Assembly: GCF_000731095.1 (NCBI RefSeq)
Contig: NZ_JMTZ01000033.1
Coordinates: 1-40,532 of the forward strand
Direction: 5' to 3'
Source of the DNA: Lysobacter antibioticus
Lineage (GTDB): Bacteria > Pseudomonadota > Gammaproteobacteria > Xanthomonadales > Xanthomonadaceae
Length of the DNA stretch: 40,532 nt
The translations under genes and the position numbers were made by a program. Below, in pieces: positions 1 to 36,736 of the stretch (positions within the stretch are counted from its first letter, which is position 1; each line of letters starts with the position of its first letter). The notes below the pieces were generated by a model that ran no database searches, was not told the DNA's origin, and was given only the letters and a program-made list of their open reading frames with translations.

Positions 1-1466
1 TAGTCGAAACCGGTGTCGTTGAAGTCTTCCAGCACGTGCTCGCGCTCGGCCGCCGACAGCAGCGGCAAACGAGCGACCGGGCATTGTGGGTCGGCGATCA
101 TCGCCGCAAGCAACACCTCGAAACACTGGGCATAGCGCGCGACCGTGGCCTGATCGAACAGATCGGTGTCGTAGACGAAATCGCAACGCAGGCCGTCGTC
201 GAACTCCATCGCCTGCAGGGCCAGGCCGATGCGGTCGCTGCCGAGGCGTTGCGGCAGCGGGAACGGCCGCAGGCCGATCTCGCCCCAATGCGCCACCGGC
301 GCATCGGACTCGTCGGCCTTCCACAGCGCCGCGAGATCCTTGCTGCGGCGCGCGTTCTGGAATACGAACACGCTCTGGAACAGCGGATGCTCGCCGCGGT
401 CCTGGCCGGCGTGCAGGCGGTCGACCAGGCGCGAGAACGGATAGTCCTGCTGGGCCATGCCCTTGAGCGCGGCGTTGCGGGCCAGGCGCAACACGTCGGC
501 CACGCTCTGGCGTTCGGCGAAGCCGGCACGCAACGCGACCATGTTGACGAAGTCGCCGACCACGCCGTCCCACTGCGGGCGGCTGCGGCCCGGCATCGGC
601 GAGCCGACGACGATGTCGTCCTGGCCGCTGAGGCGGTGCAACAGAATCTGATAGGCGGCCAACAAAGTGGTGAACATCGTGCCGGCCTGGCGCGTGGCCA
701 GGGCCGTCAGGGCTTGGGTGGTCGCCGCCGACAGCGACAGCGAGACCACTGCCTGCAAGCCGCTCGGCCGCGCCGGGCGCGGACGGTCGCTCGGCAGGTC
801 CAACACCGGTGCGGGCGTGGCGAAGCGGTCCTGCCAATAGGCGAACTGGCGCTCGGCCTCGGCGCTGCCGAGCCAATCGCGCTGCCAGGCGACGTAGTCC
901 CGATAACCGGCGGCAGTCGCGCCCTGCGCGATTTCGGTCGCGGTGCCCGACAGCAAGGCGCCGAACTCTTCGAGCAGTCGCCAATACGACCAGCCGTCGC
1001 AGATCAAATGATCGAAGGTCAGCACGAACACCGATTCGCGCGCATCGCGCACGTCACGCACATAGAGGGCGGCCCGCACCAGCGGCGCGCGCTCGTCGTC
1101 GAACGCAGCCAGCGCGTCGGCGCCGACCCTCGCCCTCAACTCGTCCTCGTCGAGCCCGGCGGCATCGACGATCGACAGCGGCACCTGCGCGCCGGTCGCG
1201 ATGCATTGCTCGGGCTCGCGGCCGTCGAGGCAACGTACGCGCGCGCGCAGCATCGGGTGACGCGCGGCCAGGGTCTCCAACGCGCGCGCGATCGCCGACG
1301 GCTCGATCCGCCCCTGCAAGGCCACGGCGAACACGTTGTTGTGGTTGCCGCGCCCGGCCGGGTCGAAACGGTACAGGAACCACCGTCCCTGCTGCGCAGC
1401 GGACAGCGGAAACCAGGCGTCCATGTCCTCGTTTCGCTCCATGTCGATGGCCCTCTCCAAATTCAT
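1..1466 (-). CDS. Nonribosomal peptide synthetase, N-terminal condensation domain (partial, runs off left edge)
   Basis: This is the first 488 codons of an NRPS; no stop is reached before the window edge. A condensation domain fills most of it: an opening FPLSAAQQGRWFLYRFDP, the active-site motif DHLICDG (about residue 150, the HHxxxDG motif with its first His replaced by Asp but the catalytic second His kept), then IVVGSPMPGR and VGDFVNMVALR. The last residues, VLEDFNDTG, are the usual linker into an adenylation domain, which must lie outside the window. Starting with a C domain rather than an A domain fits an acyl-primed (lipoinitiating) synthetase, and a fatty-acyl-AMP ligase and ACP sit upstream in the same operon. 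The ATG at 1466 has AGGA eight bases upstream and an in-frame stop just before it; in-frame ATGs at 1442 and 1424 are alternatives. The product and the amino acid loaded cannot be told from here. Confidence 0.9.
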   Translation of the reverse strand, partial: MNLERAIDMERNEDMDAWFPLSAAQQGRWFLYRFDPAGRGNHNNVFAVALQGRIEPSAIARALETLAARHPMLRARVRCLDGREPEQCIATGAQVPLSIVDAAGLDEDELRARVGADALAAFDDERAPLVRAALYVRDVRDARESVFVLTFDHLICDGWSYWRLLEEFGALLSGTATEIAQGATAAGYRDYVAWQRDWLGSAEAERQFAYWQDRFATPAPVLDLPSDRPRPARPSGLQAVVSLSLSAATTQALTALATRQAGTMFTTLLAAYQILLHRLSGQDDIVVGSPMPGRSRPQWDGVVGDFVNMVALRAGFAERQSVADVLRLARNAALKGMAQQDYPFSRLVDRLHAGQDRGEHPLFQSVFVFQNARRSKDLAALWKADESDAPVAHWGEIGLRPFPLPQRLGSDRIGLALQAMEFDDGLRCDFVYDTDLFDQATVARYAQCFEVLLAAMIADPQCPVARLPLLSAAEREHVLEDFNDTGFD

Positions 1467-1536
1467 CTATCGCGTCCTGTCGATTCGCGTCCTGCCGAAG
1501 CCGGTCTTGCGACCGGCGGTCCTGTGTCGCTGCGCC

Positions 1537-2658
1537 TCAGTCCTGGCGCGTCCAGTGCGCCGCGGCCGCGACCACGTCGCTGAGCACGCCGGCGGCGGTG
1601 ATCTCCACGCCCGCGCCCGGGCCGCTGACGCACAGCGGCATGCGGTCCTGCAATTCGGTGCGGATCGAGATCAGGTTCTGGCCCGGTTCGAGCTGCGCGA
1701 ACGACGAGTGCGCCGGCACCCGACGCAGGTTGATGCGCCCGCCTTCGCGGCTGGCCTCGGCCAGCACCACCCAGCGCTCGCCCTGCTCCAGGGCGCTAGC
1801 GATGCGCGCCTTCCAGCCGGCATCGGCGACCTGCAGGGCCGGAATCAGATCGTCGGAGGCGATGTCGAGATCGGCGAAGGGCTCGATCACCAGGTCTTCG
1901 AGCTCCATCGCGAAACCGGCCTCGCGCGCCAGCACCAGCAGCTTGCGGCTGAGGTCGATCGCGCGCAGATCTTCCATCGGATCGGGCTCGGTATAGCCCA
2001 GCGCGCGCGCTTCGGCGACCGCGGCCGAGAACAGGCAGCCTTCGTGCATGCGATGCAGAATGTAGCTCAGCGAGCCCGACAGCACGCCCTGCACCGAGAT
2101 CACCCGCTCGCCGCGCAGGCGCAGATCGCGCAGCGGGCCGAGCAAGGGAATCGCCGAGCCGACCGTGGTCTCGTAACGGTAGGGCACGCCGCGTTCGCGC
2201 GCGGCATGCTGCAGGTCGCGATAACTCGACAGGCTGCGCGCGTTGGCGCGCTTGTTGGCCGCGACGATGCCCATGCCGCCCATCAACAAACGCGGATAGA
2301 AATCGGCGATCTCGTCGCTGGCGGTGCAGTCGACCACCAGGGTGCGCACGCCGCCGTGGCGGCCGACGTGCGACATCAGGCGTTCGACGTCGTCGGCGCC
2401 GCGCTCGGGCATGTGTTCGTCGATCGACTCCGGGACGATGCCGTGGGTGTCGAAGGCGAAGCCGCGGCGGTCGAAACCGGCGAGCAGACGCAGATCGAGA
2501 TTGGCTTCCGACAACAAGGCCGGCTGGCGATTGCCGAGCTGGCGCCGGAAGGCGCTGCCGACTTTGCCGCGGGCGCCGATCAGCACCAGGTCGACGCGGT
2601 GGGCGTCGACCACGCTGTTGCGGGCTTGGATACGTACGGGCGAGTAATCAGCCAGCAT
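1537..2658 (-). CDS. hom: Homoserine dehydrogenase (ThrA/MetL-type catalytic domain without aspartokinase)
   Basis: NAD(P)-dependent reduction of aspartate semialdehyde to homoserine, the branch point to threonine and methionine. The 373-residue protein opens with a Rossmann nucleotide-binding segment (LVLIGARGKVG) and has VDCTASDEIADFY, VAANKRAN, the substrate-site segment VQGVLSGSLSYIL, and GYTEPDPMEDLRAIDLSRK with the expected catalytic Asp/Lys. LSGSLSYI and GYTEPDP resemble the dehydrogenase half of E. coli ThrA rather than stand-alone Hom enzymes, but there is no aspartokinase domain and no ACT domain, so ACT-mediated feedback control is not expected. I chose the ATG at 2658, which overlaps the end of metX by 11 bp; the longer reading from 2757 adds only out-of-frame metX sequence. 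It sits between metX and the NRPS, 70 bp from the latter, so it may feed homoserine to peptide synthesis, to methionine, or both. Confidence 0.9.
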   Translation of the reverse strand: MLADYSPVRIQARNSVVDAHRVDLVLIGARGKVGSAFRRQLGNRQPALLSEANLDLRLLAGFDRRGFAFDTHGIVPESIDEHMPERGADDVERLMSHVGRHGGVRTLVVDCTASDEIADFYPRLLMGGMGIVAANKRANARSLSSYRDLQHAARERGVPYRYETTVGSAIPLLGPLRDLRLRGERVISVQGVLSGSLSYILHRMHEGCLFSAAVAEARALGYTEPDPMEDLRAIDLSRKLLVLAREAGFAMELEDLVIEPFADLDIASDDLIPALQVADAGWKARIASALEQGERWVVLAEASREGGRINLRRVPAHSSFAQLEPGQNLISIRTELQDRMPLCVSGPGAGVEITAAGVLSDVVAAAAHWTRQD

Positions 2659-3778
2659 AAGTTGCGACCTCCGCTGCGTTGATGAAGCGGGCGCCGTGGC
2701 CCGGTGTGGCGGCGACGCCGCGGAATTGAGCGATGCTGCGTTCCATCGCCGCGGCATCGATGAGGAAGCCGTCGTGGCCGTGGCGCGAATTGATCTCGAG
2801 GAAGTGCGCGCCGGGAATCGATTCGCACAGCAGTTCCTGCTCGGCTGGCGGATACAGGCCGTCGCTGGAAATGGCCACGATCAGGGCCGGCTGGCGGATG
2901 CTCGCCAGGGCCACGTCGACGCCGCCGCGGCTATGGCCGACGTCGTGCTGATCCATCGCATCGATCAGCGCCAGATAGCAATTGGCGTCAAATCGGCGGA
3001 CGAAATTCTCGGCATGATGCTGCATCCAGCCGCGCACGGCGAAGTCGTCGGGAAGCTTGGCGTGAACATCGAACACCGCCGCGCCGTTGGCGCGCCCGTA
3101 ACGGTCGTCGAGCGAGGCCGGGCTGCGATAGGTGGCCATGGCGATCGCGCGCGCCGCGCCGAGGCCGGCATGCGGCGCGTCCTCGCGCGGGTAGTCGCCG
3201 CCGCGGAACTTCGGATCGGCGCGCAAGGACAGGCGCTGCGCCTCGCTCCAGCTGATGCACCAGGCCGAGTGGCGCGCGCTCGCGGCGATCACCGCGATCG
3301 ATTCGACCCGCTGCGGATCGAGCAAGGCCCATTCCAGGGTCTGCAGGCCGCCCATCGAACCGCCGATCACCAGCTTGATGCGGCGGATACCGAGCGCATC
3401 GGCCAAGGCCATCTGCGCGCGGACCTGATCGCGGATGGTCAGCTTGGGAAAGCGCGTGCCCCAGTGGCCGCCATCGGGATGCGGCGAGGCCGGCCCGGTG
3501 CTGCCGTAGCAACTGCCGAGGGCATTGCTGCAGACGATGAAATCGCGTTGCGGGTCGAGCGCCTTGCCGGCGCCGAACAAGGGTTCCCACCATTCGGCGG
3601 CGTCGGCCGAACCAGTCAGGGCGTGGCAGACGATGACGGCGTTATCGCCGGCCGCGGACAGCTGGCCCCAGGTGCGATAACCCAGGGTGTAGCCGGGCAG
3701 GTTCTGCCCGAGTTCGAGCGCGAGCGGCGCGGCGCTATGCCAGTGGCGAGTCGCGGGCGATACCGGAAATTCGCTCAT
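2648..3778 (-). CDS. metX: Homoserine O-acyltransferase, MetX family (alpha/beta hydrolase fold)
   Basis: Transfers an acetyl or succinyl group from CoA to the hydroxyl of homoserine, the first committed step to methionine. The 376-residue length is typical. Visible family marks are GSCYGSTGPASP, the nucleophile elbow GGSMGG (Ser141), the acid residue in SSDGLYPP (about Asp306) and the catalytic His in RHGHDGF (about His335). The acyl donor cannot be decided by eye, since MetX proteins include both acetyl- and succinyltransferases. The start at 3778 has AAAGGA nine bases upstream. The gene follows the ACP by about 105 bp and is translationally coupled to homoserine dehydrogenase by an 11-bp overlap. 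No metB/metY gene is adjacent, which is odd if this were only the methionine operon. CefG-like tailoring acyltransferases belong to the same superfamily, so tailoring is an alternative, although pairing with hom favours homoserine as substrate. Confidence 0.88.
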   Translation of the reverse strand: MSEFPVSPATRHWHSAAPLALELGQNLPGYTLGYRTWGQLSAAGDNAVIVCHALTGSADAAEWWEPLFGAGKALDPQRDFIVCSNALGSCYGSTGPASPHPDGGHWGTRFPKLTIRDQVRAQMALADALGIRRIKLVIGGSMGGLQTLEWALLDPQRVESIAVIAASARHSAWCISWSEAQRLSLRADPKFRGGDYPREDAPHAGLGAARAIAMATYRSPASLDDRYGRANGAAVFDVHAKLPDDFAVRGWMQHHAENFVRRFDANCYLALIDAMDQHDVGHSRGGVDVALASIRQPALIVAISSDGLYPPAEQELLCESIPGAHFLEINSRHGHDGFLIDAAAMERSIAQFRGVAATPGHGARFINAAEVATYAG

Positions 3779-3883
3779 GTCGCTGATTCCTTTCGTGACG
3801 CGTTGAGCAGGCCGCCCGGTTCCGGATCGCGGAACCGTCCATGGACCAGCCTGCGGAGGGTTTGGTTCGTCGGGCCCGCTGCT

Positions 3884-4147
3884 TCAACCCGGACCGACGG
3901 GCGCGGCATCCATCTCGCCGAAACGCTCGTCGAGAAAACACGCGAGCTGGCGCACGCTGGGGTGGTCGAACAACCATTCCAGTTCGACTTCGCTGCCCAG
4001 CAGGTCTTCCAACTTGCGCGTCAAGCGCAGTCCCAACAAAGAATCCACGCCGAGTTCGGCGAAGGACTCGGTCGCCGACAACTGCGAGCGGTCCACCTCC
4101 AGCACTTCGGCCATCGCATCGATCAACCACGGTTCACGCTTGCTCAT
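3884..4147 (-). CDS. Stand-alone acyl carrier protein
   Basis: An 87-residue carrier protein of the phosphopantetheine-binding family. The modification site is Ser36 in ELGVDSLLGLRL, followed by the usual helix III segment (LEWLFDHPSVRQLACFL). The VDSL form is typical of carrier proteins serving polyketide, lipopeptide or fatty-acyl-AMP ligase systems rather than the housekeeping AcpP. It lies immediately downstream of the fatty-acyl-AMP ligase, so the simplest role is to accept the activated fatty acyl group and present it to the first NRPS condensation domain. I use the ATG at 4147, preceded by GGGGG and seven bases; the longer in-frame reading from 4201 adds 18 Arg/Gly-rich residues not typical of the family. 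A 119-bp gap with three GC-rich hairpins separates it from the ligase. Confidence 0.9.
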   Translation of the reverse strand: MSKREPWLIDAMAEVLEVDRSQLSATESFAELGVDSLLGLRLTRKLEDLLGSEVELEWLFDHPSVRQLACFLDERFGEMDAAPVGPG

Positions 4148-4266
4148 TGCCCTACCCCCAACTGCTCCATGTCTTCCGGTCCGCGAGGACCGGCGCTGCA
4201 CTCACTGGCGTTACGTTTGTTGTTGTCGCGGACGCGGTCCGCGTGGCCCTCTGCGGGGCCGGTCGG

Positions 4267-5928
4267 TCATCCCGCGCGCTGCAAGGCACCGGCGAGATAA
4301 TCCATACGACACTGGTTGCGCCGCACCTTGCCGCTCGAGGTGCGCGGCAAGGTGCCGGGCTTGATCAGCACCACCTCGGACACCGGCAAGCCATAGGCGG
4401 AATTGACCGAGGCGCGCATCGAGCCGATCACATCGCCCCACTGCGGATGGCGCCGCAGCCATTCGCGCTTGAGTTCGAACACGACCACCAATCGGCCGCT
4501 GTCGCCCTCTGCGACGTCGAAGGCGGCGCCGCCGGACTGGCGCAGCGCTTCATGGCTCTGCTCGCATTCGTCTTCGATGTCCTGCGGCACGTACTTGCGG
4601 CCGTTGACGATGATCAGGTCCTTGAGCCGGCCTGTAACGAACAACTGACCGTCGTGCAGATAACCCAGGTCGCCGGTGCGTAGGTAACCGCCCGGCGCCA
4701 CCGTCTCGGCTTCGCCCTCGATGCGCGCATGGAAGGCGATCCTGTTAAGTTCGGGACGCCGCCAATAGCCTTGCGCGACGCTGGCGCCGTGCACCCAGAT
4801 CTCGCCGCCCTCGCCGTCCGCCACGAGGCGGTGGGTGTGCGGATCGACGACGACCAGGCGCATGCCGACGCGCGGCGTGCCGCAGCCGACCACGGCCGCA
4901 CCGTCGCGGCGATCGACCGCGGTCGCGGTGCCGCAACGCACGCCGGTGATCAGCAAGGTCGACTCGGCCATGCCATAACAGGGGTAGAAGGATTCGGCGC
5001 GGAAGCCATACTCGCCGAAACGTTCGGCGAAACGCGCCACGGTGGCGGCGCGGATCGGCTCGGCGCCGCAGAAGGCGACGCGCCACGACGACAGGTCGAC
5101 GCCTTCGATCTGTTCGGGCTTGATTACGCGCCCTGCCAGGTCGTACATGAAGTTCGGGCCGCCGCTGACGGTGACGCCGAACTTCGAAATGATCTGCAGC
5201 CAGCGTTCCGGATACTGCACGAATTCGGACGGCGACATGAAGCCGGCCGGGCAGCCGCTGTACATCAGCTGCAACACGCCGCCGACCAGGCCCATGTCGT
5301 GGAACAACGGCAAGGCGGTGAACAGCACCGAGTCCGGCGACAGTTCCATCGCGTCCTGGATCGCGGCGCAGTTATGCACCAGGTTGCCGTGGCTCACGAC
5401 GACGCCCTTCGGGTCGCCGGTGGAACCGGAGGTGTACTGGAAGAAAGCGTGCGCCGAAGGTTCGGGGAACGCTTGAGCCCACTGCCCGGCATCGGCGCGC
5501 AAGCCCGCCGCGTCGTGTTCGCGCAGGTCGATCTTGAGCAGTCGCTCGCCATCGAATTCGAGCTCGGTGTCGAGCAATTCGTCGCCGTCGAACAACAGCG
5601 CGCGCGCCTGGGCGTCGCCGACGATCAACTGCAGGCGGCTCTGCATCACCTGACGGCGCGGCGGCGCCGACGGCACCGCGACCACGCCGGCGAGCATGCA
5701 GGCATAGAAGGCGACTACGAAACTCTGCTGCGACTTGCACACCAATACCGCGCGCTGGCCCGACAGGCCGCGCTGCTGCAACCGCGCCGCCAGGCCGGCG
5801 GCTTGCTCGAACAGGCCGCCGAAAGTGAATACCTCCGGCTCCAACGAGGCGCCCTTGAAAAAGCGGCAGGCCACGGCGTCGGGCATGGTTCGGGCACGGT
5901 GAAGCATGATCTCGGGAAAACTTTGCAC
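4267..5928 (-). CDS. Fatty-acyl-AMP ligase (FAAL), lipopeptide initiation
   Basis: Adenylate-forming enzyme that activates a fatty acid as acyl-AMP, presumably for transfer to the downstream ACP. From the GTG start it is 553 residues. It shows the A3 core YTSGSTGDPK (about residues 165-174), PNFMYDLAGR, CGAEPIRAATVARFAE, YGMAEST (A5), YLRTGDLG, GRLKDLIIVNGRKYVPQDIE and a C-terminal RTSSGKVRR carrying the adenylation lysine. The CGAEP, YPCYGMAE and NGRKYVPQDIE segments are characteristic of FAALs as opposed to acyl-CoA ligases. I prefer the GTG at 5928 because AAGGA lies seven bases upstream; an in-frame TTG at 5946 would overlap that ribosome binding site. This is the first gene of the minus-strand operon and faces a long, lower-GC divergent spacer. 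Acyl chain length cannot be predicted by eye. Confidence 0.92.
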   Translation of the reverse strand: MQSFPEIMLHRARTMPDAVACRFFKGASLEPEVFTFGGLFEQAAGLAARLQQRGLSGQRAVLVCKSQQSFVVAFYACMLAGVVAVPSAPPRRQVMQSRLQLIVGDAQARALLFDGDELLDTELEFDGERLLKIDLREHDAAGLRADAGQWAQAFPEPSAHAFFQYTSGSTGDPKGVVVSHGNLVHNCAAIQDAMELSPDSVLFTALPLFHDMGLVGGVLQLMYSGCPAGFMSPSEFVQYPERWLQIISKFGVTVSGGPNFMYDLAGRVIKPEQIEGVDLSSWRVAFCGAEPIRAATVARFAERFGEYGFRAESFYPCYGMAESTLLITGVRCGTATAVDRRDGAAVVGCGTPRVGMRLVVVDPHTHRLVADGEGGEIWVHGASVAQGYWRRPELNRIAFHARIEGEAETVAPGGYLRTGDLGYLHDGQLFVTGRLKDLIIVNGRKYVPQDIEDECEQSHEALRQSGGAAFDVAEGDSGRLVVVFELKREWLRRHPQWGDVIGSMRASVNSAYGLPVSEVVLIKPGTLPRTSSGKVRRNQCRMDYLAGALQRAG

Positions 5929-7081
5929 ACTGACTTCCTTGAGCAAACCTTTGCTTGACTGAACTGCTTCCGTTCGAAGACCCCATGTCTGGCGTGCTTC
6001 GCTTCATGCGATATGCGGACCAACAACTCTCCATCGACGCGCGAAACCCGCGCGCCGCCGCTGGTACTTCCTTTCGATTTCCCCCTGAGTCCGAGCCGAT
6101 TCGGTTCGGACGGTGCGAGCCTAATGGCGCTGGTTCGCACTCGTTGCGACGGTCGTCAACGCGATCCGCGCATCTCCGGGGCCCATGACGCTTGCCACTG
6201 CATCTTGCGTAATCGGCCCTCGCGAGGCTTATACGCTTGGCGTCTCAAGCGCGTCAAATGTACGTATGTAATCTGTGCACTTGGTCTCTACAACCACACG
6301 AAACTGAAACGCAGTCACATAAAAAATACGGCCAGGTACGTGCAACCTACACACTTCAATGCACGCGCCCTGATTCGATGTGAAGGCGATGTATTAGGCA
6401 AATCCCCAGGGAAAACACCACTTTCGAGTGCACTGACGATTTTTTCGCCAACTCGATTCACCTACATGAGCGAGAGTCATTTTATTGACGCCACATCCTC
6501 ATTAAGCTATTGCTGTGTGACGTTGGTCTTTCATCGACAGCTGTTCTCGTCGAACCGATGACCGCCTATCAGCAAGGATCCGGGGACGCCATAGGCGCAT
6601 GATCATTGCGATAGCCGACAACGTGATCGCACTCAAGAATCTGCAAACAAAGGATCGAAACCCCAAGGAACAGGGAAATATCCGAAACCCAGTAAACGGC
6701 ATCCGGGGGATGCACAGGACACGACCCGCTTCTGCGGCCTGCCAGGCCACGGGCGGTCGCGTCTGAACGCCCGCATGGCCTGATGGGGTCGAGTATCGCG
6801 TTAGCTATCGCACGGTGGCGACTCGTGCGCCCACCCGCTGCGGGCCGGTGCGTCTCGTCATGTGCAACACCGAGCCGCGAGGATGGCGAACCGACGCTGC
6901 GCGGTCCGTTCTCGTCGCGACGACCTGACTACGCGCGGCAGTGGCATCCGCGCCGGGCGCGCGGCGCTTCGGCTCGGCGCATGGGCAAGGGCGAAAGCCG
7001 GCGCCGCAATGGAACGTACGCATCGACACTCCGTGGGGACGGCGTCGACGGCGGAGACAGGGAGTCGTCCCCTTCACGATC
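5929..7081. other. 1.15 kb divergent spacer with lower GC; no convincing gene
   Basis: This gap separates the minus-strand ligase operon from the plus-strand acylase-exporter operon. About 6240-6730 is visibly richer in A and T than the rest of the window, with short AT tracts. Open frames at 6013-6561 (+) and 6502-6750 (-) lack the G/C third-position bias of the neighbours, contain no recognisable motif and have no good ribosome binding site, so I read the region as regulatory. It holds the minus-strand promoter candidate at 6228-6257 and a weaker plus-strand pair, TTGACG (6485-6490) with TATTGC (6508-6513) at 17-bp spacing. No clear operator palindrome was found. Confidence 0.6.
6228..6257 (-). 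promoter_or_regulatory. Candidate sigma70-type promoter for the FAAL-ACP-metX-hom-NRPS operon
   Basis: On the minus strand, TTGACG (6257-6252) is followed after 18 bases by TATAAG (6233-6228), each matching the consensus at five of six positions. It is the best promoter-like pair I found in the divergent spacer and points at the ligase gene, leaving a leader of roughly 290 bases. It is a pattern match only, with no transcription evidence. Confidence 0.38.
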
Positions 7082-9625
7082 ATGGCGAGAGCATCGGTGA
7101 AGTTTTTTGCATTATTCAGTTCCTTTCCGCTCGCCTCGCGGTTTCTGGCCATCGTCGTCGTACCGTTGCTGGCCGCTTCGGTCTGGACCTGGTCGTCGCT
7201 GAAAGCGAGCCTGCCGCAAACGGCGAACTTGCAGATCGGCCGCGCGCAGCTCAGCCGCGGCGCCACGGCACCGGCGACGATCCGGCGCGATGCCGACGGC
7301 ATGGTCCACATCCAGGCAGCGAGCGACGACGACGCTTTCTTCGCGGTCGGCTATGCGCAAGCGCAAGACCGTCTTTGGCAGTTGGAACTGCAACGGCGCC
7401 TGGCACGCGGCCGCGTCAGCGAGATTTTCGGCAAGGACAGCGTCGACACCGACGTCTGGTTCCGTACCCTGGGCCTGTACGAATCCACCGCCACTGCGTG
7501 GCCGGCACTGAGCCCGCAGGCGCAGCGTTCGCTGACCGCCTACACCGCCGGCATCAATGCCTGGATCGGCGAAGGCCACCCGCTGCCGAGCGAGTTCCGC
7601 GTGTTCGGCATCGCGCCGGAGCGCTGGACCGAACGCGATTCGCTGGCCTGGATCAAGATGTTCGCGCTCGACCTGGGCGGCAATTTCCAACGCGAACTGG
7701 CGCGCTACGTCGCCCAGCGCGGCCTCGACGAAACGCAGCTGAAACCGTTCTTCCCCGATTACCCCGCCGATGCGCCGACCACGGTAGCGGCGCTGGGCGC
7801 GCGCGATGCCGCGCCGCTGGCCTCGATCGGCCGCCTGCAATCGCAGTTGCAGCGCGATTACGGCCTGGCGGTGCCGAACACCGGCAGCAATGCCTGGGTG
7901 GTGGCCGGTCGCCTGACCTCCGACGGCGCCGCCCTGCTCGCCAACGATCCGCATCTCGGCCTGCAGATTCCGTCCTTGTGGTATCCGCTCAGCATCCAGG
8001 CGCCGGGGTTGAAAACCTCGGGCATGAGCCTGGTCGGCCTGCCGGTGGTGGTGTTCGGACGCAACGAGCGCCTCGCCTGGGGCGGCACCAATATGATGGC
8101 CGACACCCAGGACTTGTTCTTCGAGCGCGTCGACCGCGGCAGCGAGCATTACGAAACCGGCGCCGGTTGGCAGGCGTTCGCGGTGCGCGAGGAGCGCATC
8201 GAGGTGCGCGCCGATTTCCCGCGGCAGTTGCGCGAGCAGTACGCGCCGGTCGCCTTGAAGGTCCGCTCGACCCGGCACGGGCCGATCATCAGCGATCGCT
8301 ACGGCGTGTTCGATCAACCGGTGGCGCTGCGCTGGACCGGGCTCGACCCGGGCGACACCAGTTACGAGGCGTTCTTCCGCCTCGGTTATGCGAAAGACTG
8401 GGACGGCTTCCGCCAGGCTCTGGCCTTCCACATCGCCCCGGCGATGAACATGGTCTACGCCGACCGCGAGGGCAACATCGGTTACCTCGGCGCCGGTCGC
8501 CTGCCGTTGCGCAAACAGGGCGAAGGCACCCTGCCCTCGCCGGGCTGGGACGAAGCCTACGGCTGGTCCGGCGAAGTGCCGCCGGCGCAATGGCCGCAAA
8601 GCTACAACCCGCCTTCGGGCTACATCGTCACCGCCAACAACAAGGTCGCCGGCGATGGCTACCCGTATTTCGTCTCGCACGACTGGGCTTCGCCGGCGCG
8701 CGCGCGCCGCATCGAGCAATTGCTGCGCGAACGCATCGACACCGGCAAGCGCCTGGGCGTGGCCGACATGCAGCGGATCCAGGCCGACACCCTCGACCTG
8801 GAAGCGGCGGCGCTGATCGGCGAGTTGCGCAAGCGTCTTTCCAAACTCTCCGACAGCAGGCTTTCGGACGGCAACGCCCCGGACAAGATGGGGGAACACC
8901 GCGCGCAAGCGGCCCGCCATCTCAAGGACTGGAACGGCGACATGCGCGCCGAAAGTCAGGCTGCGGCGATCTTCCACGCCTGGATGCGGCACTTCCGCGA
9001 GCGCGTCTACGCCGACCGCCTGCAGGCGAACTGGGGCGAGACCGAGGGCGAAGACGTCCTCGACGGGCTCGTCGAAGGCGTCGGCCTGGATCAGCTGACC
9101 GCGCTGCTGCGCGCCGACGGCGCGGGCTGGTGCGACCGCCCCGCCACCGCAGCGCGCGAGACCTGCGACCAGGCCCTGGCGGCCTCGCAGGAACGCGCGT
9201 TGTGGGAGTTGTACAAGCTCAAGGGCGACTGGAGCATGGACAGTTGGCGTTGGGGCGAGGTCCAGCACACCGTGTACCGGCATACGCCCTTCAGCCAGTG
9301 GAAGCCGTTCGACAAACTGTTCGAGCGTCGCGTCGGCAACGGCGGCTCGCCGAATTCGGTCAACGTCGCCGGCGCCGCCTACGCCGGCTCGGACGGTTAT
9401 CTGCAGGCCTTCGGCGCCGGCTTCCGGCAAGTGATCGCGTTGCGCCGCGACGCGGTGCAGCACCACTACATGAATTCCACCGGCCAGTCCGGCAACGTGT
9501 TCAGCCCGCACTACGACGACAGTGTCGAAGCCTTCCGCAATGTCGAATACCGCAGGCTGGACGCGAGCTACGACCGGCCCGCCGCCGCACCCCGCGCAGG
9601 CCAGGCCACAGGAGCCGCCGAATGA
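7082..9625 (+). CDS. Penicillin acylase family protein (N-terminal nucleophile hydrolase), probably periplasmic
   Basis: An 847-residue amidohydrolase of the penicillin G acylase/AHL acylase/PvdQ superfamily, which cleaves acyl groups from amide nitrogens. Residues 1-42 form a signal peptide or N-terminal anchor (hydrophobic core about 20-35). The alpha-chain region includes DADGMVHIQA and AQAQDRLWQLELQRR. The beta chain would begin at Ser269 after Gly268 in PNTGSNAWVVAG, the usual autocleavage point and nucleophile, followed by LLANDPHLGLQIPSLWY, RNERLAWGGTN and SVNVAGAAY. ATG 7082 gives the signal peptide directly, although its ribosome binding site is weak. Its stop overlaps the start of a cyclic-peptide exporter (ATGA), and across the spacer are lipopeptide initiation genes. 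By analogy with PvdQ in pyoverdine maturation it may remove the fatty acyl chain from the exported precursor; AHL degradation or self-protection are alternatives. Confidence 0.9.
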   Translation: MARASVKFFALFSSFPLASRFLAIVVVPLLAASVWTWSSLKASLPQTANLQIGRAQLSRGATAPATIRRDADGMVHIQAASDDDAFFAVGYAQAQDRLWQLELQRRLARGRVSEIFGKDSVDTDVWFRTLGLYESTATAWPALSPQAQRSLTAYTAGINAWIGEGHPLPSEFRVFGIAPERWTERDSLAWIKMFALDLGGNFQRELARYVAQRGLDETQLKPFFPDYPADAPTTVAALGARDAAPLASIGRLQSQLQRDYGLAVPNTGSNAWVVAGRLTSDGAALLANDPHLGLQIPSLWYPLSIQAPGLKTSGMSLVGLPVVVFGRNERLAWGGTNMMADTQDLFFERVDRGSEHYETGAGWQAFAVREERIEVRADFPRQLREQYAPVALKVRSTRHGPIISDRYGVFDQPVALRWTGLDPGDTSYEAFFRLGYAKDWDGFRQALAFHIAPAMNMVYADREGNIGYLGAGRLPLRKQGEGTLPSPGWDEAYGWSGEVPPAQWPQSYNPPSGYIVTANNKVAGDGYPYFVSHDWASPARARRIEQLLRERIDTGKRLGVADMQRIQADTLDLEAAALIGELRKRLSKLSDSRLSDGNAPDKMGEHRAQAARHLKDWNGDMRAESQAAAIFHAWMRHFRERVYADRLQANWGETEGEDVLDGLVEGVGLDQLTALLRADGAGWCDRPATAARETCDQALAASQERALWELYKLKGDWSMDSWRWGEVQHTVYRHTPFSQWKPFDKLFERRVGNGGSPNSVNVAGAAYAGSDGYLQAFGAGFRQVIALRRDAVQHHYMNSTGQSGNVFSPHYDDSVEAFRNVEYRRLDASYDRPAAAPRAGQATGAAE

Positions 9626-11349
9626 AACTGTTCGCCGAGTATTCGCGCCGCGCGCCCAACAAGGTGTTCTTCTCGATCCTGCTGGGCGGCCTGTCGGGCA
9701 TCTGCTATTCGTTGCTGATCCCGCTGGTGATGAACGTGCTCAAGCAAGGCGACCCGCGCCTGCACACGATCGCGGCCGCGCCGACCCGGCTGTTCTCGCT
9801 GGAGATCGCCAACGCCCCGTTCGCCCTGGTGTTCACGCTGGTGTGCGTGTTCATCCTGATCACCCGGACCTTGTCGCAGGTGGTGCTGACCCGGGTCGCG
9901 ATCGACGTCGCCTCCAGCCTGCGCACCCGCCTGTACGACCGCATCGCCCAGGCGCCGCTGTCGGCGCTGGAGAAGATCGGCCACTCGCGGCTGATCGCCG
10001 CCCTGACCTCGGACGTGCCGCGCATCGTCTTGGGCGCGCGCATGTTCCCGGACATGCTGATCAACCTGGTCATGCTGCTGGGCATGCTCGGCTTCTTGCT
10101 GGTGCTCAACGCCGATCTGTTCTGGTTCGTGCTCGGCTGCATCGCCTTCGGTGTGGTCACCTATCAAATCCCGATGCTGATCGGCGGGCGTTATTTCAAC
10201 AGCGCGCGCCAGCATTTCGACCACCTGCAGGAATCGATCCAGGGCCTCATCCACGGTATCAAGGAGCTCAAGCTCGACGACGCCAAGCGCGAGGCCTTCT
10301 TCGACAAGGTGCTGATGCACTGCGAACGCTCGGTGCAGAAGGACGAGAAGACCGGCTATACGATCCTGCGCGCGGCCAGCAACTACGGCGACCTGCTGAG
10401 TTTCTTCGTGATCGGCTCGATCGTATTCATCGTGGTCAACTACCGCACGATCAGCAACGAGCAATTGATCGGGGTGATCATGGCGCTGCTGTACATCGCC
10501 GGGCCGATCTCGGCGATCCTCGGCTTTTTGCCGCAGATCTCGATCTCGCGCGTATCGATCCAGCGCGTGGCCAAGCTGTTCGAGGAGATCCCGCAGGAGA
10601 CCATCTCGGCCGTGCAGGAGCCGGCGCGGGACTGGGACAGCGTGCGTTTCGAGCAGGTCAGCTACCGCCACGGCAGCAAGGACGACAAGGACGACGGCTT
10701 CCGGGTCGGCCCGCTCGACCTGGAGTTCCGCAAGGGCGAGATCAGCTTCATCGTCGGCGGCAACGGCTCGGGCAAGTCGACCCTGAGCAAGCTGCTGACC
10801 CTGCACTACCGCGCGGTCGGCGGCACCATCCGCTTCGGCGAGCACGCCGTCAGCGACGATTCGATCGGCACCTACCGGCAGTCGGTCAGCGCGATCTATT
10901 CCGACTACCACCTGTTCGACCAGATCCTCGGCGCCGACGACGACCAGCTCAAGGCGACCGTCGACCACTACCTCAAGGCCCTGCACCTGGACCGCAAGGT
11001 CAGCTACCGCGACGGCCGCTTCTCCACTCTCGCCCTGTCCGACGGCCAGCGCCGGCGCATGGCCTTGCTGGCCTCGATCATCGACGACAAAGAACTGTAT
11101 TTGTTCGACGAATGGGCCGCCGACCAGGACCCGACCTTCAAGGCCGTGTTCTATCACGAGATCCTTCCGGCGCTGAAGGCGCGCGGCAAGGCGATCGTCG
11201 CGATCACCCACGACGACCGCTATTTCGATGTCGCCGATCAGTTGATCGTGATGGAGGAAGGCCGCGTCGCCCGGGTCGAGCGTCGCGAGACGCGCGCGGC
11301 GCGGGAACTCCCGTCGCCGCGCGCGCAAGCTTTCGTCATGGCCGGCTGA
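9622..11349 (+). CDS. Cyclic-peptide export ABC transporter (PvdE/SyrD/YojI family)
   Basis: A 575-residue half-transporter with fused membrane and ATPase domains, expected in the inner membrane as a dimer. About six membrane spans lie in the first 300 residues. The ATPase domain has Walker A GGNGSGKST (about residues 379-387), an ABC signature altered to LSDGQRRRMAL, and Walker B running into LFDEWAADQDP. FDEWAADQDP is a hallmark of the branch containing PvdE (pyoverdine precursor export), SyrD (syringomycin) and YojI (microcin J25). The start ATG overlaps the acylase stop as ATGA, so the two are translationally coupled and probably act in sequence: export, then periplasmic processing. The same frame stays open far upstream through the acylase gene, but that part is not coding. 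The 3' end overlaps the convergent metallopeptidase-like gene by 14 bp. Confidence 0.93.
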   Translation: MKLFAEYSRRAPNKVFFSILLGGLSGICYSLLIPLVMNVLKQGDPRLHTIAAAPTRLFSLEIANAPFALVFTLVCVFILITRTLSQVVLTRVAIDVASSLRTRLYDRIAQAPLSALEKIGHSRLIAALTSDVPRIVLGARMFPDMLINLVMLLGMLGFLLVLNADLFWFVLGCIAFGVVTYQIPMLIGGRYFNSARQHFDHLQESIQGLIHGIKELKLDDAKREAFFDKVLMHCERSVQKDEKTGYTILRAASNYGDLLSFFVIGSIVFIVVNYRTISNEQLIGVIMALLYIAGPISAILGFLPQISISRVSIQRVAKLFEEIPQETISAVQEPARDWDSVRFEQVSYRHGSKDDKDDGFRVGPLDLEFRKGEISFIVGGNGSGKSTLSKLLTLHYRAVGGTIRFGEHAVSDDSIGTYRQSVSAIYSDYHLFDQILGADDDQLKATVDHYLKALHLDRKVSYRDGRFSTLALSDGQRRRMALLASIIDDKELYLFDEWAADQDPTFKAVFYHEILPALKARGKAIVAITHDDRYFDVADQLIVMEEGRVARVERRETRAARELPSPRAQAFVMAG

Positions 11350-12478
11350 CAGGCGCCGCGGCCGCGGCCGATTTCGCCTCGCCGCTGTTAACCTCGCCGG
11401 TCTTCGCATCGCCCTCGGCCTCGCGCCGCTGGGTGTCGGCGATCAGCACTTCGCGCGCGGTGCGGCGCACCGCTTCGGGATCGGCCTTGCGCAGATCGGC
11501 GTCGGCGGCCAGGCCGAGCTTCGTCGCCACCTCGGCGGTGACGCGCTTGTTGGCATAGGGATGCGGGTGATCGGGTTCGTCGTCCTGGCTGCGATAGAAA
11601 CGGTCGAGCAGTTTCTCGCGGGTGGTATCGGCCTGGGCCAGTTCGACCAGCTTGGCGCGGTACTCCAGGGTCCAGGCCGGCATCTCCGGCCAGCGCTTCA
11701 TGTCGGCGAAATGCTGGGCCTCGTGGCCGAGGAAGCTGACCCGGAAGTCTTCGCCCTTCATGTCGCCGTAGGAACTGCGCACCGCGTACAGACCCTCGGG
11801 CTTGGCCCATCCGGCCGCGCCGGTGCGCTCGCACGAGGTGTAGTGGGCCCAGCCGCGGCTGACCCAACCGTCCATCACGAACACCTTCACCGGCTGCCGC
11901 TCGCCGCTCGGCAGGTCGACGGTGTAAGGCCGCTCCTCCTGCTGGCCCCACAGCATCAGGTCGTACAACGGCGGCGTGCGGCCCTGCAGCGGATGAAAGC
12001 CGCGCTTGCGCAGTTCGACGTTGATGCGTTCGTTCAAGCCTTCGAAAGCTTCTTCGGTCGGTGCCGGCGCGGGCTCGCCGATCAGCGCGGCCAGATCCGT
12101 CTTCAAGCGCACCTCTTCGGCCGGACGCAGCGCCGGGTCGCGCAACGCCTTCCACCAATAGCGCTGATACACCTCCAGCACGCTGCGCGCGAACGGATCG
12201 GCGACGGTGCCGGCCAGGTACGGCGGCGTGCTGCGGTCGTGACGGCTGAGCATGCAGGCGCGGAACGCGGCGTCCTTGGCGTTGAACTCCTCCAGCGGCG
12301 CCGCCTTCAAGGTGCTCAGCGCGGTCGGCATGTCGGCGCGCAGCGACGCGCCGAGCGCATCGTTGATCGCCTTGGCCGCAACCGGGCCGCTGGCGGGGAT
12401 CGTCGTCGATGCGCCGCTCGCCGCCCAGGCGAGCAGGACGGGCAAGGCCGTGGCGGCGGCAAGTCGGGTGAGGTTCAT
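11336..12478 (-). CDS. Secreted HEAQH (HExxH) zinc metallopeptidase-like protein of unknown function
   Basis: The 380-residue product begins with a signal peptide (hydrophobic stretch about residues 5-22, likely cut near SGAS-TT). A zinc-peptidase motif HEAQH is at residues 252-256 (within SFLGHEAQHFADMKR), with downstream glutamates near 272 and 279 in LEYRAKLVEL that could be the third zinc ligand of a gluzincin-like site. I do not recognise a named family. The last 40 residues (RREAEGDAKTGEVNS onward) look disordered. Its C-terminal codons overlap the exporter gene by 14 bp from the opposite strand. Upstream, with a 38-bp gap, is an AraC-type regulator on the same strand, so it may be the third gene of that unit. 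Proteolytic activity is inferred from the motif only. Confidence 0.75.
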   Translation of the reverse strand: MNLTRLAAATALPVLLAWAASGASTTIPASGPVAAKAINDALGASLRADMPTALSTLKAAPLEEFNAKDAAFRACMLSRHDRSTPPYLAGTVADPFARSVLEVYQRYWWKALRDPALRPAEEVRLKTDLAALIGEPAPAPTEEAFEGLNERINVELRKRGFHPLQGRTPPLYDLMLWGQQEERPYTVDLPSGERQPVKVFVMDGWVSRGWAHYTSCERTGAAGWAKPEGLYAVRSSYGDMKGEDFRVSFLGHEAQHFADMKRWPEMPAWTLEYRAKLVELAQADTTREKLLDRFYRSQDDEPDHPHPYANKRVTAEVATKLGLAADADLRKADPEAVRRTAREVLIADTQRREAEGDAKTGEVNSGEAKSAAAAAPVSRP

Positions 12479-12516
12479 GGCCTGGCTCCTGGTGCGCCGG
12501 CGGCGCGTTGGAGACA

Positions 12517-13245
12517 TTAAGCCGCGATGGCCAGGGGCCGGTCTTGTACGCAATTGATCTGTTGCCGGAGCCGGCCGCGGACCTGTTCGCGCAGCCGCGC
12601 CGGCGTGCAGCCGGCATGGGCGACGACGATGCGGTGCAGATGGCTCTGGTCGCTGAAGCCGGCGGCGGCGGCGACTTCGGCCAGCGATGCATTGCCGGCC
12701 AGCAGCTGCAACGCATGGCGCCAGCGCGCTTCGCGGCGCAGCGCCTGCGGCGACATGCCGTAGGTGCGGGTCAAGGCGCGGCTGGCATGCTCGGCGGAAA
12801 CGCCCAGTCGACGCGCGAGGGTGCCGATCTCGTCGTCGCATTCGGCCATCGTGCGCAGCAGTTCGCCTTGCCAATCGGGCACCACCACGGCCGTCTGCGG
12901 CGTTGCGCAGGCCAGCAGTTCCGACAGGCGCTGCGGACAACGCGCGAACACTTCCTGGGCTTCGCGCAGGTCGTGCACCTGCCAGGCGCTGGCGGCGAAG
13001 ACGAAGCGGTCGTTCGGCAATTCGATATTGATCGCGCTCGCGCCGAGGCGGCCGAAACGATCGCCGTGGGCGTGATACGGCGGATGCAGCACCAAGGTGC
13101 CCGGGCGGCACGGCAAGGGGCCGTCGAGACTGGATTCGGTGTAGTCGCCGTCCAGCACCAGCGCCGCGTACGGCGCGTGGTGGCGGTGCGTCGCCAGGAT
13201 CGCGCCGCGATCGTGGCGGGTGCGATAGGCGAGCCCGGAACTCAC
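12517..13245 (-). CDS. AraC family transcriptional regulator
   Basis: A 242-residue regulator. The N-terminal half resembles a cupin-like sensor domain (THRHHAPYAALVLDGDY, GTLVLHPPYHAHGDRFG). The C-terminal half has the two helix-turn-helix units of AraC proteins: GTLARRLGVSAEHASRALTR and LAEVAAAAGFSDQSHLHRIV, ending in GCTPARLREQ. I chose the GTG at 13245 because it overlaps the stop of the upstream SRPBCC gene as GTGA and keeps the domain intact; the longer frame from 13794 would only add out-of-frame SRPBCC sequence. Coupling to a secreted SRPBCC protein and proximity to the metallopeptidase-like gene suggest a local three-gene unit. The effector and the regulated genes are unknown. Confidence 0.85.
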   Translation of the reverse strand: MSSGLAYRTRHDRGAILATHRHHAPYAALVLDGDYTESSLDGPLPCRPGTLVLHPPYHAHGDRFGRLGASAINIELPNDRFVFAASAWQVHDLREAQEVFARCPQRLSELLACATPQTAVVVPDWQGELLRTMAECDDEIGTLARRLGVSAEHASRALTRTYGMSPQALRREARWRHALQLLAGNASLAEVAAAAGFSDQSHLHRIVVAHAGCTPARLREQVRGRLRQQINCVQDRPLAIAA

Positions 13246-13913
13246 TTGCCCGAACCTGCCTTGGCCGGGTCGCGCGCGCGGCGCAGGTAATCGGCCAGAC
13301 CGCCGAGTTGCAGCCCCTGCACCTTGTCGACCAAGGCGGCGAATTTGCTGAGGTCGTCGGGCGTGTAACCGCCGGCGCGGTAATGCAGGGCGATGCGGGT
13401 GCCGCCGTCGTTGACCGGGCTCAGGCGGAACTCCATCGCCCCGCCCAGGCCCATGCCCTGCAGCGGCCCGAGGCCGCCGAGCAGGCGCAGGGTCTTGCCG
13501 GGGTCGACGAAGCTGACCGTCATGTGCTGGGCTTGTTGTTGGCCGTTGCGGCCGATCTCGCAGAAGCAGCCGCCGGCGCGGGCGTCGATCGACAGGGTCG
13601 ATTCGGCGCCCCACCAGGTGTGGTCCTTGGGCCACCAACGGTCGACGTCTTCGACCAGGGCCTTCCATGCGGTGGCCTGGTCGACCGGGACGACCTGCTC
13701 GTTCTCGATGGTGAACCCGTTCGGCGCCGCGTCCTTGACCGCGGCCACGGCGTGGCCGGTGCCAAGCAAGGCCAACCCCACCGCTCCGACCCATCCGAGC
13801 CGGCTCAGTCCGATTCGGGCCAGTCCGATTCGATCCGATCCGCTCCGACCCAATCCGCTCCGTTCCGATCCGCTCCGTTCCGATCCGCTCCGATCCGATC
13901 CGACCCTGCGCAT
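13242..13913 (-). CDS. SRPBCC/START-like domain protein with a repeat-expanded N-terminal leader
   Basis: A 223-residue protein with an AHSA1/polyketide-cyclase-like (SRPBCC) fold. The signs are EQVVPVDQATAWKALVEDVDRWWP, an acidic/tryptophan-rich middle and the C-terminal helix LSKFAALVDKVQGLQLGGLADYL. The hydrophobic segment WVGAVGLALLGTGHAVAAV (about residues 41-59) looks like a signal peptide, but it follows an unusual 38-residue Arg/Ser/Gly stretch (RSGSERSGSERSG and so on) encoded by degenerate repeats at 13800-13905. The ATG at 13913 has a strong ribosome binding site (GAGGGGAG, seven bases upstream), so this leader is probably translated; a later GTG is possible. Such a long basic n-region is atypical and may have grown by repeat slippage. 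The gene is translationally coupled (GTGA) to the AraC regulator. The ligand is unknown. Confidence 0.78.
   Translation of the reverse strand: MRRVGSDRSGSERSGSERSGLGRSGSDRIGLARIGLSRLGWVGAVGLALLGTGHAVAAVKDAAPNGFTIENEQVVPVDQATAWKALVEDVDRWWPKDHTWWGAESTLSIDARAGGCFCEIGRNGQQQAQHMTVSFVDPGKTLRLLGGLGPLQGMGLGGAMEFRLSPVNDGGTRIALHYRAGGYTPDDLSKFAALVDKVQGLQLGGLADYLRRARDPAKAGSGK
13800..13905. repeat. Degenerate tandem repeat of CCGAT/CCGCT units
   Basis: About 105 bp built from variants of the 5-mers tccga, tccgc and ttccg, giving a 10-15 bp higher-order period (cgctccgttccgatc recurs). It lies in frame inside the first 38 codons of the SRPBCC gene and encodes the RSGSE/RSGSD-like leader. Simple-sequence expansion or contraction is the likely origin. 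Confidence 0.8.
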
Positions 13914-14023
13914 CGCCGCTCTCCCCTCGCCGGCCGCGCCGGCGTTCGAGGGGATTAGGAACCGCCGCCTACGCTCCGCGCAAGCGACGGAAGTTGGGGG
14001 CCGACGGCTAGGTCAGGCGCCCC

Positions 14024-17341: not shown

Positions 17342-18904
17342 TCATGAGCTGCACGACAGCATCGAGCAACCGGCGCGGTCGCGGGCCCATTCCGGGCGGC
17401 GCGCGGCATAGACGTCGCGGCCCGGCTGGTCCTCGTACGGCCGGCGCAGCACCTCCAGCAGTTCGGCGATGCCCTGCAGGTCGCCCTGCCCGGCGCGGTC
17501 GATGGCCTGCTGGGCCAGATAATTGCGCAGCACGTAACGCGGGTTGGCGGCGTTCATGACGGCGATGCGTTCGGCCGCGGGCCAGGTGTCGGCGCGCGCG
17601 CGTTCGGCGTAAGCCGCCAGCCAGGCACGCAGGGCCGCCTCGCCTGTCGCGCCCAGTTCGGCGTCGTAATAGGCCTCGGCGAAAGCCTGCGGTTGCGGCT
17701 GCGTCTGCGCGATATCGACCGAAGCCAGGGCGCGGAAGAAGATCGTCATGTCGACCTGATGGCGGTGCAGCCACTCGCGCAGTTGCTGCATCAGCTCGAC
17801 ATCGCCGTCGCCGCATTCGCGCAGGCCGAGCTTGCGCGCGATGCTGTCGCGTTCGGCGAGGTTGTAGGCGTCGACATAACGGCGCAGGCCGTCCTGCAAG
17901 GCCTCGACCGGCAGCAACAGCGACAAGGCCCCGGCCAGGCGACTGAGGTTCCAGTACGCCACCTGCGGCTGCTGGCCGTAACGGTAGCGGCGCTGGCCGG
18001 CGTCGGTGGTGTTCGGCGTCCAGTCCGGGTCGTAGTCGTCGATCCAACCGTAGGGGCCGTAGTCGATGGTCAGGCCGAGAATCGAAAGATTGTCGGTGTT
18101 CATCACGCCATGGACGAAGCCGACCCGCATCCAGTGCGCCATCGTCACCGCCGTACGTTCGCAGACTTCGCCGAACCAGGCGCCGTAGCGGGCTTCGCCC
18201 TCGCCGCCCAGGTGCGGGAAATCGCGGGCGATGCAGAAGTCGACCAGCTGCCGCAGCAGTTCGGTCTCGCCGCGCGAAGCCGGCAGCTCGAAATTGCCGA
18301 AGCGAATGAACGACGGCGCGACCCGGCACACGACCGCGCCGGGCTCGGCCTGCGGATGGCCGTCGTAGAACATATCGCGCACCACGTTCTCGCCGGTGCC
18401 GACCAGACTCAGCGCGCGCGTGGTCGGCACGCCGAGGTGGTGCATGGCCTCGCTGCACAGGAATTCGCGCACCGACGAACGCAGCACCGCGCGGCCGTCG
18501 GCGGTGCGCGAGTACGGCGTCGGGCCGGCGCCCTTGAGCTGCAGTTCCCAACGCTCGCCGGCGGCGTTGACGACTTCGCCGAGCGAAATCGCGCGGCCGT
18601 CGCCGAGCTGCCCGGCCCAATGGCCGAACTGATGGCCACCGTAATTGGCCGCATACGGCTGCATGCCGTCGAGCAAGGCATTGCCGCCGAATACCTCGGC
18701 GAAGGCCTGGCTGGCGACCTCGTCCTCGCTGAAACCCAGGCGTTCGGCCATCTCGGCCGACCAGGCCAACAGCCGCGGCGCCGCCACCGGGGTCGGGTCG
18801 ACCCGCGAATACAGCGCGCCATGCACCTGGCGTATGCCCGGCGCGGTGTCGGGGTCGCCGGGAAGTTCGCGGACGAAGGCGTTGTCGAAGTGCGGCGAAT
18901 GCAT
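17342..18904 (-). CDS. selO: Protein adenylyltransferase SelO (YdiU)
   Basis: A 520-residue pseudokinase-fold enzyme that transfers AMP from ATP to Ser/Thr/Tyr of target proteins; in E. coli SelO is linked to redox stress and protein S-glutathionylation. Visible family segments are [77 protein letters not shown] (with the metal and active-site Asp/Asn residues) and [18 protein letters not shown]. The protein ends CSMLSCSS, where bacterial proteins carry cysteine in place of the selenocysteine of eukaryotic SelO. Length and start are usual. GST and GNAT genes flank it on the same strand. Confidence 0.95.
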
Positions 18905-34112: not shown

Positions 34113-34293
34113 CGGCATCGCGGATCTCCGCCACTGTGCCGAATTCGGCACCCAGCTAGGGCAAAAGGCACTATCGCTTCCGGCCCGGTTGCCGCGACGA
34201 TCGACGGCGCACTCACGCCGCCGCTCAGGCGGTCCGCACCTGCTCGACCGTCACACGAACCGCTTCGCCGTCATCGCCTTCTGGAGATCCCGC

Positions 34294-36132: not shown

Positions 36133-36156
36133 ACCGATCGAAACACCGATGACGAC

Positions 36157-36717: not shown

Positions 36718-36736
36718 CCGCGCGGAGTCTCGCCTC

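Follow-up and report, generated by a model that had tools for sequence, protein, structure and literature searches.

An acylase gene coupled to a cyclic peptide exporter gene beside a lipoinitiated nonribosomal peptide synthetase line in Lysobacter points to probable transient N-acylation of the peptide

Contig NZ_JMTZ01000033.1 of Lysobacter antibioticus (RefSeq assembly GCF_000731095.1), analyzed here over its entire 40,532 nucleotides and referred to as the window, is contig C33 of a 5.53-Mb, 168-contig genome and carries one edge of a nonribosomal peptide synthetase (NRPS) gene cluster. Two operons diverge from a shared intergenic region. The minus strand is transcribed in the order fatty acyl-AMP ligase (FAAL), stand-alone acyl carrier protein (ACP), MetX-type homoserine O-acyltransferase, homoserine dehydrogenase (Hom), and start of the first NRPS, and the plus strand encodes an N-terminal nucleophile (Ntn) acylase followed by an ATP-binding cassette (ABC) exporter of the cyclic peptide type (Table 1). 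An original prediction, made from the letters of this DNA, had the FAAL, ACP, and condensation-domain-first NRPS genes facing the acylase and exporter genes, the latter two overlapping at an ATGA, and profile matches bear this arrangement out. It named both plus-strand genes and overlooked MetX and Hom between the ACP and NRPS genes; its description of the two plus-strand functions as fused was inexact, because the acylase and exporter reading frames share 4 bp (ATGA) and are thus two overlapping genes. A consensus scan of the intergenic region found no sigma-70-like promoter. The exporter frame is open over 1495 codons in all, extending back across the acylase gene (window 6862 to 11349, plus strand), a spurious high-GC open reading frame; the acylase is encoded in another frame.

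Table 1. Features of the two facing operons in the window, with positions, strand, and supporting matches
Feature	Position	Strand	Support
N-terminal condensation (starter) domain of the first NRPS, running off the contig start	3..1466	-	PF00668 3e-80
Homoserine dehydrogenase (Hom)	ORF (open reading frame) 1537..2757 (true start perhaps near 2658)	-	PF00742 2.4e-39, PF03447
MetX-type homoserine O-acyltransferase	2648..3778	-	PRK00175 388.9 bits, above cut-off 331; TIGR01392 418.5, below cut-off 500
Stand-alone acyl carrier protein (ACP)	3884..4147	-	Weak carrier-protein matches within larger NCBIfam models
Fatty acyl-AMP ligase (FAAL), start codon provisional	4267..5946	-	PF00501 (AMP-binding) 1.1e-69; PF23024 33.4, above cut-off 27
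Divergent intergenic region separating both operons	5947..7081	.	Sequence
Ntn-hydrolase acylase, penicillin acylase family, 847 aa, N-terminal hydrophobic helix	7082..9625	+	PF01804 5.2e-214
Cyclic peptide export ABC transporter (PvdE/SyrD type)	9622..11349	+	TIGR01194 382 bits, above cut-off 286.2

The acylase and exporter genes form a real, conserved functional unit, here called the cassette. We searched 395 genomes of the family, scoring at most two acylase and three exporter candidates per genome and leaving weaker copies uncounted. An acylase of at least 730 bits was found in 22 genomes (the next scored 271, and 278 of the 395 had some match at an E value of up to 1e-30), and an exporter of at least 571 bits likewise in 22 (next, 307). 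The two sets of genomes are identical, the genes are adjacent in all 22, and no strong acylase match stands without its exporter. The nearest named relatives of the acylase come from the Lysobacteraceae. A pattern scan of 84,980 species genomes, which detects close relatives only, returned 16 loci, six of them already in the family set, and the exporter was next door in every case. Together with the Alteromonas plasmid pAMDE1, the 22 family loci and the 10 further loci from the scan make 33 distinct loci, and in all of them the exporter gene follows the acylase gene on the same strand at a spacing of -10 to +50 bp; the genes overlap in 20 loci, with a spacing of exactly -4 bp in 15. The cassette recurs in Alteromonas, Pseudoalteromonas, Catenovulum, and Vibrio, and NRPS domains are visible in 31 of the 33 stretches, the exceptions (G137 and G229) being contigs of ~10 kb. 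A 34th locus was reached via the exporter, which matched in 97 plasmid records; of the three new records opened, that of a Vibrio europaeus plasmid alone carried the cassette. Acylase and exporter distances are correlated (Mantel r, 0.968, a value reached by none of 9999 permutations), a correlation in which joint inheritance is not separated from species descent. In three loci (G115, G137, and G229; L155, L156, and L159), the acylase gene is immediately preceded by a gene for a CmlA-type hydroxylase.

The acylase belongs to PF01804 (713.6 bits; cut-off, 21.3) and scores only 61.2 bits against the model for PvdQ, the acylase of pyoverdine biogenesis (NF051460), far below the cut-off of 950. 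Of the solved chains, D-succinylase comes nearest by profile, at 397 bits, followed by penicillin G acylase at 284 bits, with PvdQ at 95 bits; glutaryl-7-ACA acylase is another near solved relative. Kinship with PvdQ is not supported. Ser269 aligns with residue 1 of the solved penicillin acylase beta chains and is the predicted N-terminal nucleophile. All 33 cassette acylases retain it, along with Asn519 and Arg540, whose counterparts in penicillin G acylase we take to be the oxyanion Asn and the Arg. An N-terminal hydrophobic stretch is likewise present in all 33, and the motif P-(LIVMA)-x(1,2)-(R/K)-x(6,8)-P occurs at the N terminus of 26 of the 33 and of 0 of 26 other homologues, a comparison in which the motif was written after the cassette set had been seen and the starts of the others were chosen crudely. 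Some stand-alone relatives have starts that by eye resemble signal peptides or lipoprotein signals. From its N-terminal sequence, we predict that the cassette acylase is anchored in the membrane by its N-terminal helix and that its catalytic part is periplasmic.

In a tree of 57 acylases, from which two rows were left out for their short length, 29 cassette acylases fall in one clade (support, 96/90) and four marine ones (two from Catenovulum and one each from Vibrio and Pseudoalteromonas) in a second. The stand-alone acylases of Lysobacteraceae lie elsewhere, and six PvdQ-like rows, picked by the PvdQ profile yet below its cut-off, form a clade of their own with 100/100 support and a long branch; PvdQ proper is absent from the tree. 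This phylogeny had been named in advance as a test of the original prediction, and the acylase clusters with neither the stand-alone penicillin acylases of the Lysobacteraceae nor the PvdQ-like enzymes. Both this tree and the condensation-domain tree described next were built without the characterized Tem25, PvdQ, GdnD, PvdE, and CIII domains.

The genes opposite the cassette look like an initiation module that attaches a fatty acid. The window FAAL scores up to 376.7 bits against FAAL models from NCBIfam, versus 173.1 bits against the amino-acid adenylation model, and orthologues of the ACP that adjoin a FAAL in other clusters are 57 to 69% identical. The order FAAL, ACP, condensation-first NRPS is found in the window and in eight other family loci; MetX and Hom interrupt it in the window and in G283, a complete genome of a sibling from the same genus. 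Nine of the 22 family loci have a FAAL next to the cassette, and the Catenovulum (L065), Alteromonas (L009), and Vibrio (L196) loci bring the total to 12 of 34. Because the FAAL profile had been seeded with the L009 domain, a separate check was made of L009, L065, and L196; each of the three scores higher with FAAL models than with the amino-acid adenylation model, and PF23024 exceeds its cut-off in two.

A tree of 95 condensation-family domains from 33 loci contains two clades made up exclusively of N-terminal domains, S1 (12 rows) and S2 (9 rows), each with 100/100 support. S1 holds the window NRPS start and the other domains that follow a FAAL and ACP (nine in all, two of them with MetX and Hom intervening), plus those of G160, G241, and G019, and all 12 have the motif DHxxxDG, in which Asp replaces the first His of HHxxxDG. 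S2 domains keep HHxxxDG (9/9) and head an NRPS gene downstream of the exporter gene, immediately so in seven; their position suggests that they too are of starter type, characterized starter domains being absent from the tree. Counting both kinds of evidence, 24 of 34 loci have a module that starts the line by adding an acyl group, or could plausibly do so (FAAL, 12; starter-condensation clade with no visible FAAL, 12). Lysobacter sp. ISL-50 (L053) is among the bacteria with FAAL, ACP, and cassette together, whereas the stretch read of L. enzymogenes ATCC 29487 (L056) shows the cassette and no initiation module.

As the original prediction had noted, the NRPS leaves the window, and its continuation is seen in G283, which carries the whole locus with an acylase 95 to 97% identical. 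Synteny with G283 orders the contigs of the window genome as C33, a 4.0-kb gap, C91, C92, a 1.1-kb gap, and C61; the larger blocks share 91 to 96% DNA identity with G283, and module ends match elsewhere in the line secondarily. The G283 line has 14 adenylation (A) domains. Its first gene encodes condensation (C), A, and thiolation (T) domains in the order C-A-T-C-A-T, its second C-A-T, an epimerization (E)-like domain, a partial C domain, and A-T-C-A-T, and the genes that follow 2, 1, 2, and 4 modules. A methyltransferase is inserted in the final A domain of the second gene (Pfam methyltransferase models above cut-off, C91), and a thioesterase terminates the line (PF00975 8e-27, C61). A CmlA-type diiron beta-hydroxylase gene sits between the first two NRPS genes (PF18456 1.7e-92; solved relative, CmlA), and 3' of the last lie genes for a type II thioesterase, two TauD proteins (one recognized via Pfam, the other via similarity), and a DUF5916 protein. 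Among the A-domain codes, DFWNIGMVH presumably specifies Thr, and we take DVQFVAHVC to be Pro-like, DAWWLGGTF Val-like, DAQDLGVVD Gln-like, and DLYNNALTY Ala-like; a literature search returned no papers on the code DLYNNALTY. We found no named compound that matches the product of the cluster. Near the end of another contig of the same genome, a 9335-aa open frame (G000:C3:80367-109022) marks another very large NRPS.

MetX and Hom are extra copies, as the genome has two other Homoserine_dh loci and two other MetX-like loci (39% and 31%). In the stretches read, they adjoin the cassette in 3 of the 22 family loci (the window, G283, and Lysobacter chinensis, G160/L055). The pair would probably supply homoserine or an O-acyl homoserine as a building block. 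The nearest solved chain to MetX is deacetylcephalosporin C acetyltransferase (2vat), followed by MetX itself, and MetX could possibly be an acetyltransferase acting on the product; homoserine chemistry is favored because the gene is paired with Hom. We considered MetX and Hom as the source of the residue encoded by DLYNNALTY and rejected this link, because that code or the nearly identical DLFNNALTY occurs with no MetX or Hom match in the stretch read at G134, G006, G281, G101, G241, G019, and G141. The Pseudoalteromonas locus L067 has a distant Hom match (29%) and no MetX.

Taken as one unit, the lipoinitiated NRPS, acylase, and exporter are best read, in agreement with the original prediction, as a pathway in which a lipid-tagged precursor is unmasked outside the cytoplasm: the peptide is probably N-acylated only transiently and loses the tag on the periplasmic side as it is exported or afterward. 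The FAAL would load a fatty acid onto the ACP, from which the starter C domain would join it to the first residue, and the 14 modules and thioesterase would then build the peptide. The TIGR01194 exporter would carry the acylated peptide, its likely cargo, over the inner membrane, where the anchored acylase, with its catalytic part in the periplasm, would strip the acyl group and leave a mature product that lacks the fatty acid. The lines that adjoin the cassette differ greatly in their A codes, the 14-module line described above and the bleomycin-like line of Alteromonas being examples. The acyl step therefore looks independent of the peptide, which argues more for a general role, for example as an export tag or a membrane handle, than for the tailoring of one product. 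The tag may mask activity, protect the producer, or be recognized by the exporter.

Comparable chemistry is known from three systems. In pyoverdine biogenesis, an NRPS precursor is made in acylated form, with PvdE as its most likely carrier and PvdQ as a periplasmic Ntn acylase, according to the relevant passages of one account (PMC6206403). The window resembles that system in pairing a predicted N-acylated NRPS precursor with a cyclic-peptide-type ABC exporter and a putatively periplasmic Ntn acylase. It differs in that the cassette acylase is nearer to penicillin G acylase and D-succinylase than to PvdQ and is apparently membrane-anchored, in that the cassette genes form a close, often overlapping pair, and in that no TonB gene lies on the cluster contigs. 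The cassette is like PvdE and PvdQ in its logic and different in its acylase, its fixed coupling, and its predicted anchoring. A second precedent, telomycin, comes from a Gram-positive host, which has no periplasm. Telomycin synthesis in Streptomyces canus is described as initiated by a FAAL (Tem18), an ACP, and a CIII domain, with the lipid removed after release (sections of PMC9113097), and the cluster includes an acylase, Tem25 (passages of PMC10587159). The window shares the in-cluster acylase and, as predicted here, would share FAAL:ACP:CIII-type initiation and loss of the lipid from the released peptide, Tem25 being likened by description and not by sequence. For the glidonins of Schlegelella brevitalea, the same passages describe GdnD, a PvdQ-like, predicted periplasmic Ntn acylase encoded ~1 Mb from its cluster (PMC10587159). 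These starter-C lipopeptides and their deacylation by an Ntn acylase parallel the reading proposed here, whereas GdnD differs from the cassette acylase in being PvdQ-like and remote from its cluster.

The cassette itself is present on Alteromonas mediterranea plasmid pAMDE1, next to a bleomycin-like NRPS-polyketide synthase (PKS) line; the acylase is 42% and the exporter 46% identical to those of the window, and the 4-bp overlap is the same, whereas the line of A domains is different. The NRPS after the cassette (L009, 25623-33788) begins with a FAAL-type domain, and this bleomycin-like line may be lipoinitiated. Parts of the 2013 Alteromonas paper mention the acylase and the exporter separately and describe the acylase as one that the zorbamycin cluster shares (PMC3777966), which hints at a transient acyl group in that family of antibiotics. 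No earlier description of the cassette was found among the titles, abstract openings, and selected passages of openly licensed PMC papers. A Lysobacter survey includes uncharacterized 14-module clusters among those it lists (PMC11451712), and a term search for "acylase" found no occurrence in the main text of that survey or of PMC9581180.

Several observations weigh against transient N-acylation as the function of the locus. The closest solved relative of the acylase, D-succinylase, is no fatty-acyl amidase, so that the acyl specificity is not indicated by kinship, and the N-terminal hydrophobic stretch is as such common to many other homologues. A single origin of the 33 cassette acylases appears in 26% of bootstrap trees and is thereby neither shown nor excluded. 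Related acylases outside the clade mostly stand alone: six of seven opened neighborhoods, from six class-sample genomes, have no exporter. Across the class-wide sample of 369 genomes, with limits on the E value of up to 1e-100 for the acylase profile and up to 1e-70 for the exporter, an acylase match was obtained in 18 genomes and an exporter match in 19, with only two genomes (the window's own and G641) common to both lists. The FAAL matches of the window, L009, L065, and L196 fall below NCBIfam cut-offs. Finally, 10 of the 34 loci (G271, G125, G115, G137, G263, G229, L062, L064, L066, and L067) have no FAAL and no S1 or S2 domain within the sequence read, which covered 100 kb for G271 and 94 kb for G263; the NRPS genes of these two are cut off at the end.

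Those 10 loci, together with the kinship to D-succinylase, penicillin G acylase, and glutaryl-7-ACA acylase, would suit an arrangement in which the fatty acid is kept on the product and the acylase trims mis-acylated chains, cuts another amide, or serves recycling. We consider this improbable, since product-specific trimming hardly explains the one-to-one coupling to the exporter and the link to starter domains across very different A codes, and since in the known systems PvdQ and GdnD cut an N-acyl chain and telomycin loses its lipid after release. The same deacylation could also serve self-protection, if the acylated peptide were toxic and the acylase detoxified it outside, a purpose that has been proposed for GdnD and the glidonins. 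Acylated glidonins, in the passages that report them, inhibited the producer, and deacylated ones did not (PMC10587159), which speaks for this purpose. Against it, GdnD is PvdQ-like and lies ~1 Mb from its cluster, and the enzyme here is fixed to the exporter, which suggests obligatory maturation. Self-protection thus seems a possible purpose, if not a likely one.

A siderophore matured as pyoverdine is, which the original prediction had offered as an alternative, would employ the same two functions as PvdE and PvdQ, and Tistrella plasmid pTM2 does group a penicillin acylase, a TonB receptor, Fhu genes, and a TIGR01194-type exporter. However, none of the genome's 52 TonB plug matches lies on C33, C61, C91, or C92, and no Fur-box-like site was found in the window at up to three mismatches from the consensus; the two exporters whose loci were opened in Azospirillum and Tistrella sit with TonB and FhuB genes, and the window exporter does not. 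Pyoverdine itself is controlled largely through a sigma factor. On balance, a siderophore is very unlikely. At the Tistrella mobilis pTM2 locus (L197), the TonB gene is that of a siderophore receptor, and three genes for NHLP-leader precursors of ribosomally synthesized and posttranslationally modified peptides stand beside the exporter gene. Since PF01804 includes N-acyl homoserine lactone (AHL) acylases, the enzyme could in principle be a quorum-quenching AHL acylase that merely neighbors the cluster; the distance of the PvdQ-like rows, in their separate long-branched clade, and the adjacency of the exporter at 33 of 33 loci make this scarcely credible.

Returning to transient N-acylation, we tentatively propose, as a further step that may well prove wrong, that the fatty acid is an export ticket. 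In this proposal, a subfamily of TIGR01194 exporters would accept only N-acylated peptides, irrespective of their sequence, the acylase would dock to the exporter via its conserved N-terminal membrane helix so that export and deacylation are coupled, and the cassette would have been assembled independently of PvdE and PvdQ and be portable between unrelated NRPS and NRPS-PKS lines. Separately, the class-sample genome G641 (L192, C1:730001-750000, 9851-13942) has an exporter gene and then a divergent acylase gene, 29% identical to the Alteromonas acylase, in the reverse order and in another family; this pair is possibly an independent assembly.

Beyond the cluster, the rest of the window appears ordinary. 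Its minus strand encodes a Uup-like ABC-F ATPase (just below the model cut-off), a SelO adenylyltransferase, and a radical SAM/UPF0004/TRAM protein (14024-15898, 17342-18904, and 29821-31194), and the plus strand at 32407-38257 carries genes for CT_C_D, DUF885, LamB/YcsF, and DUF969 proteins, a set that presumably resembles a 5-oxoprolinase (PxpABC) region.

Here a second, distantly related acylase is tied one-to-one to an exporter of the same kind, next to lines whose A codes differ widely; this points toward transport, and the portable two-gene unit makes the role of the acyl tag testable. Clusters with a FAAL or starter C domain that also carry the pair, and that genome mining would call lipopeptide clusters, may yield deacylated peptides, and mass searches for their products should therefore cover both forms.

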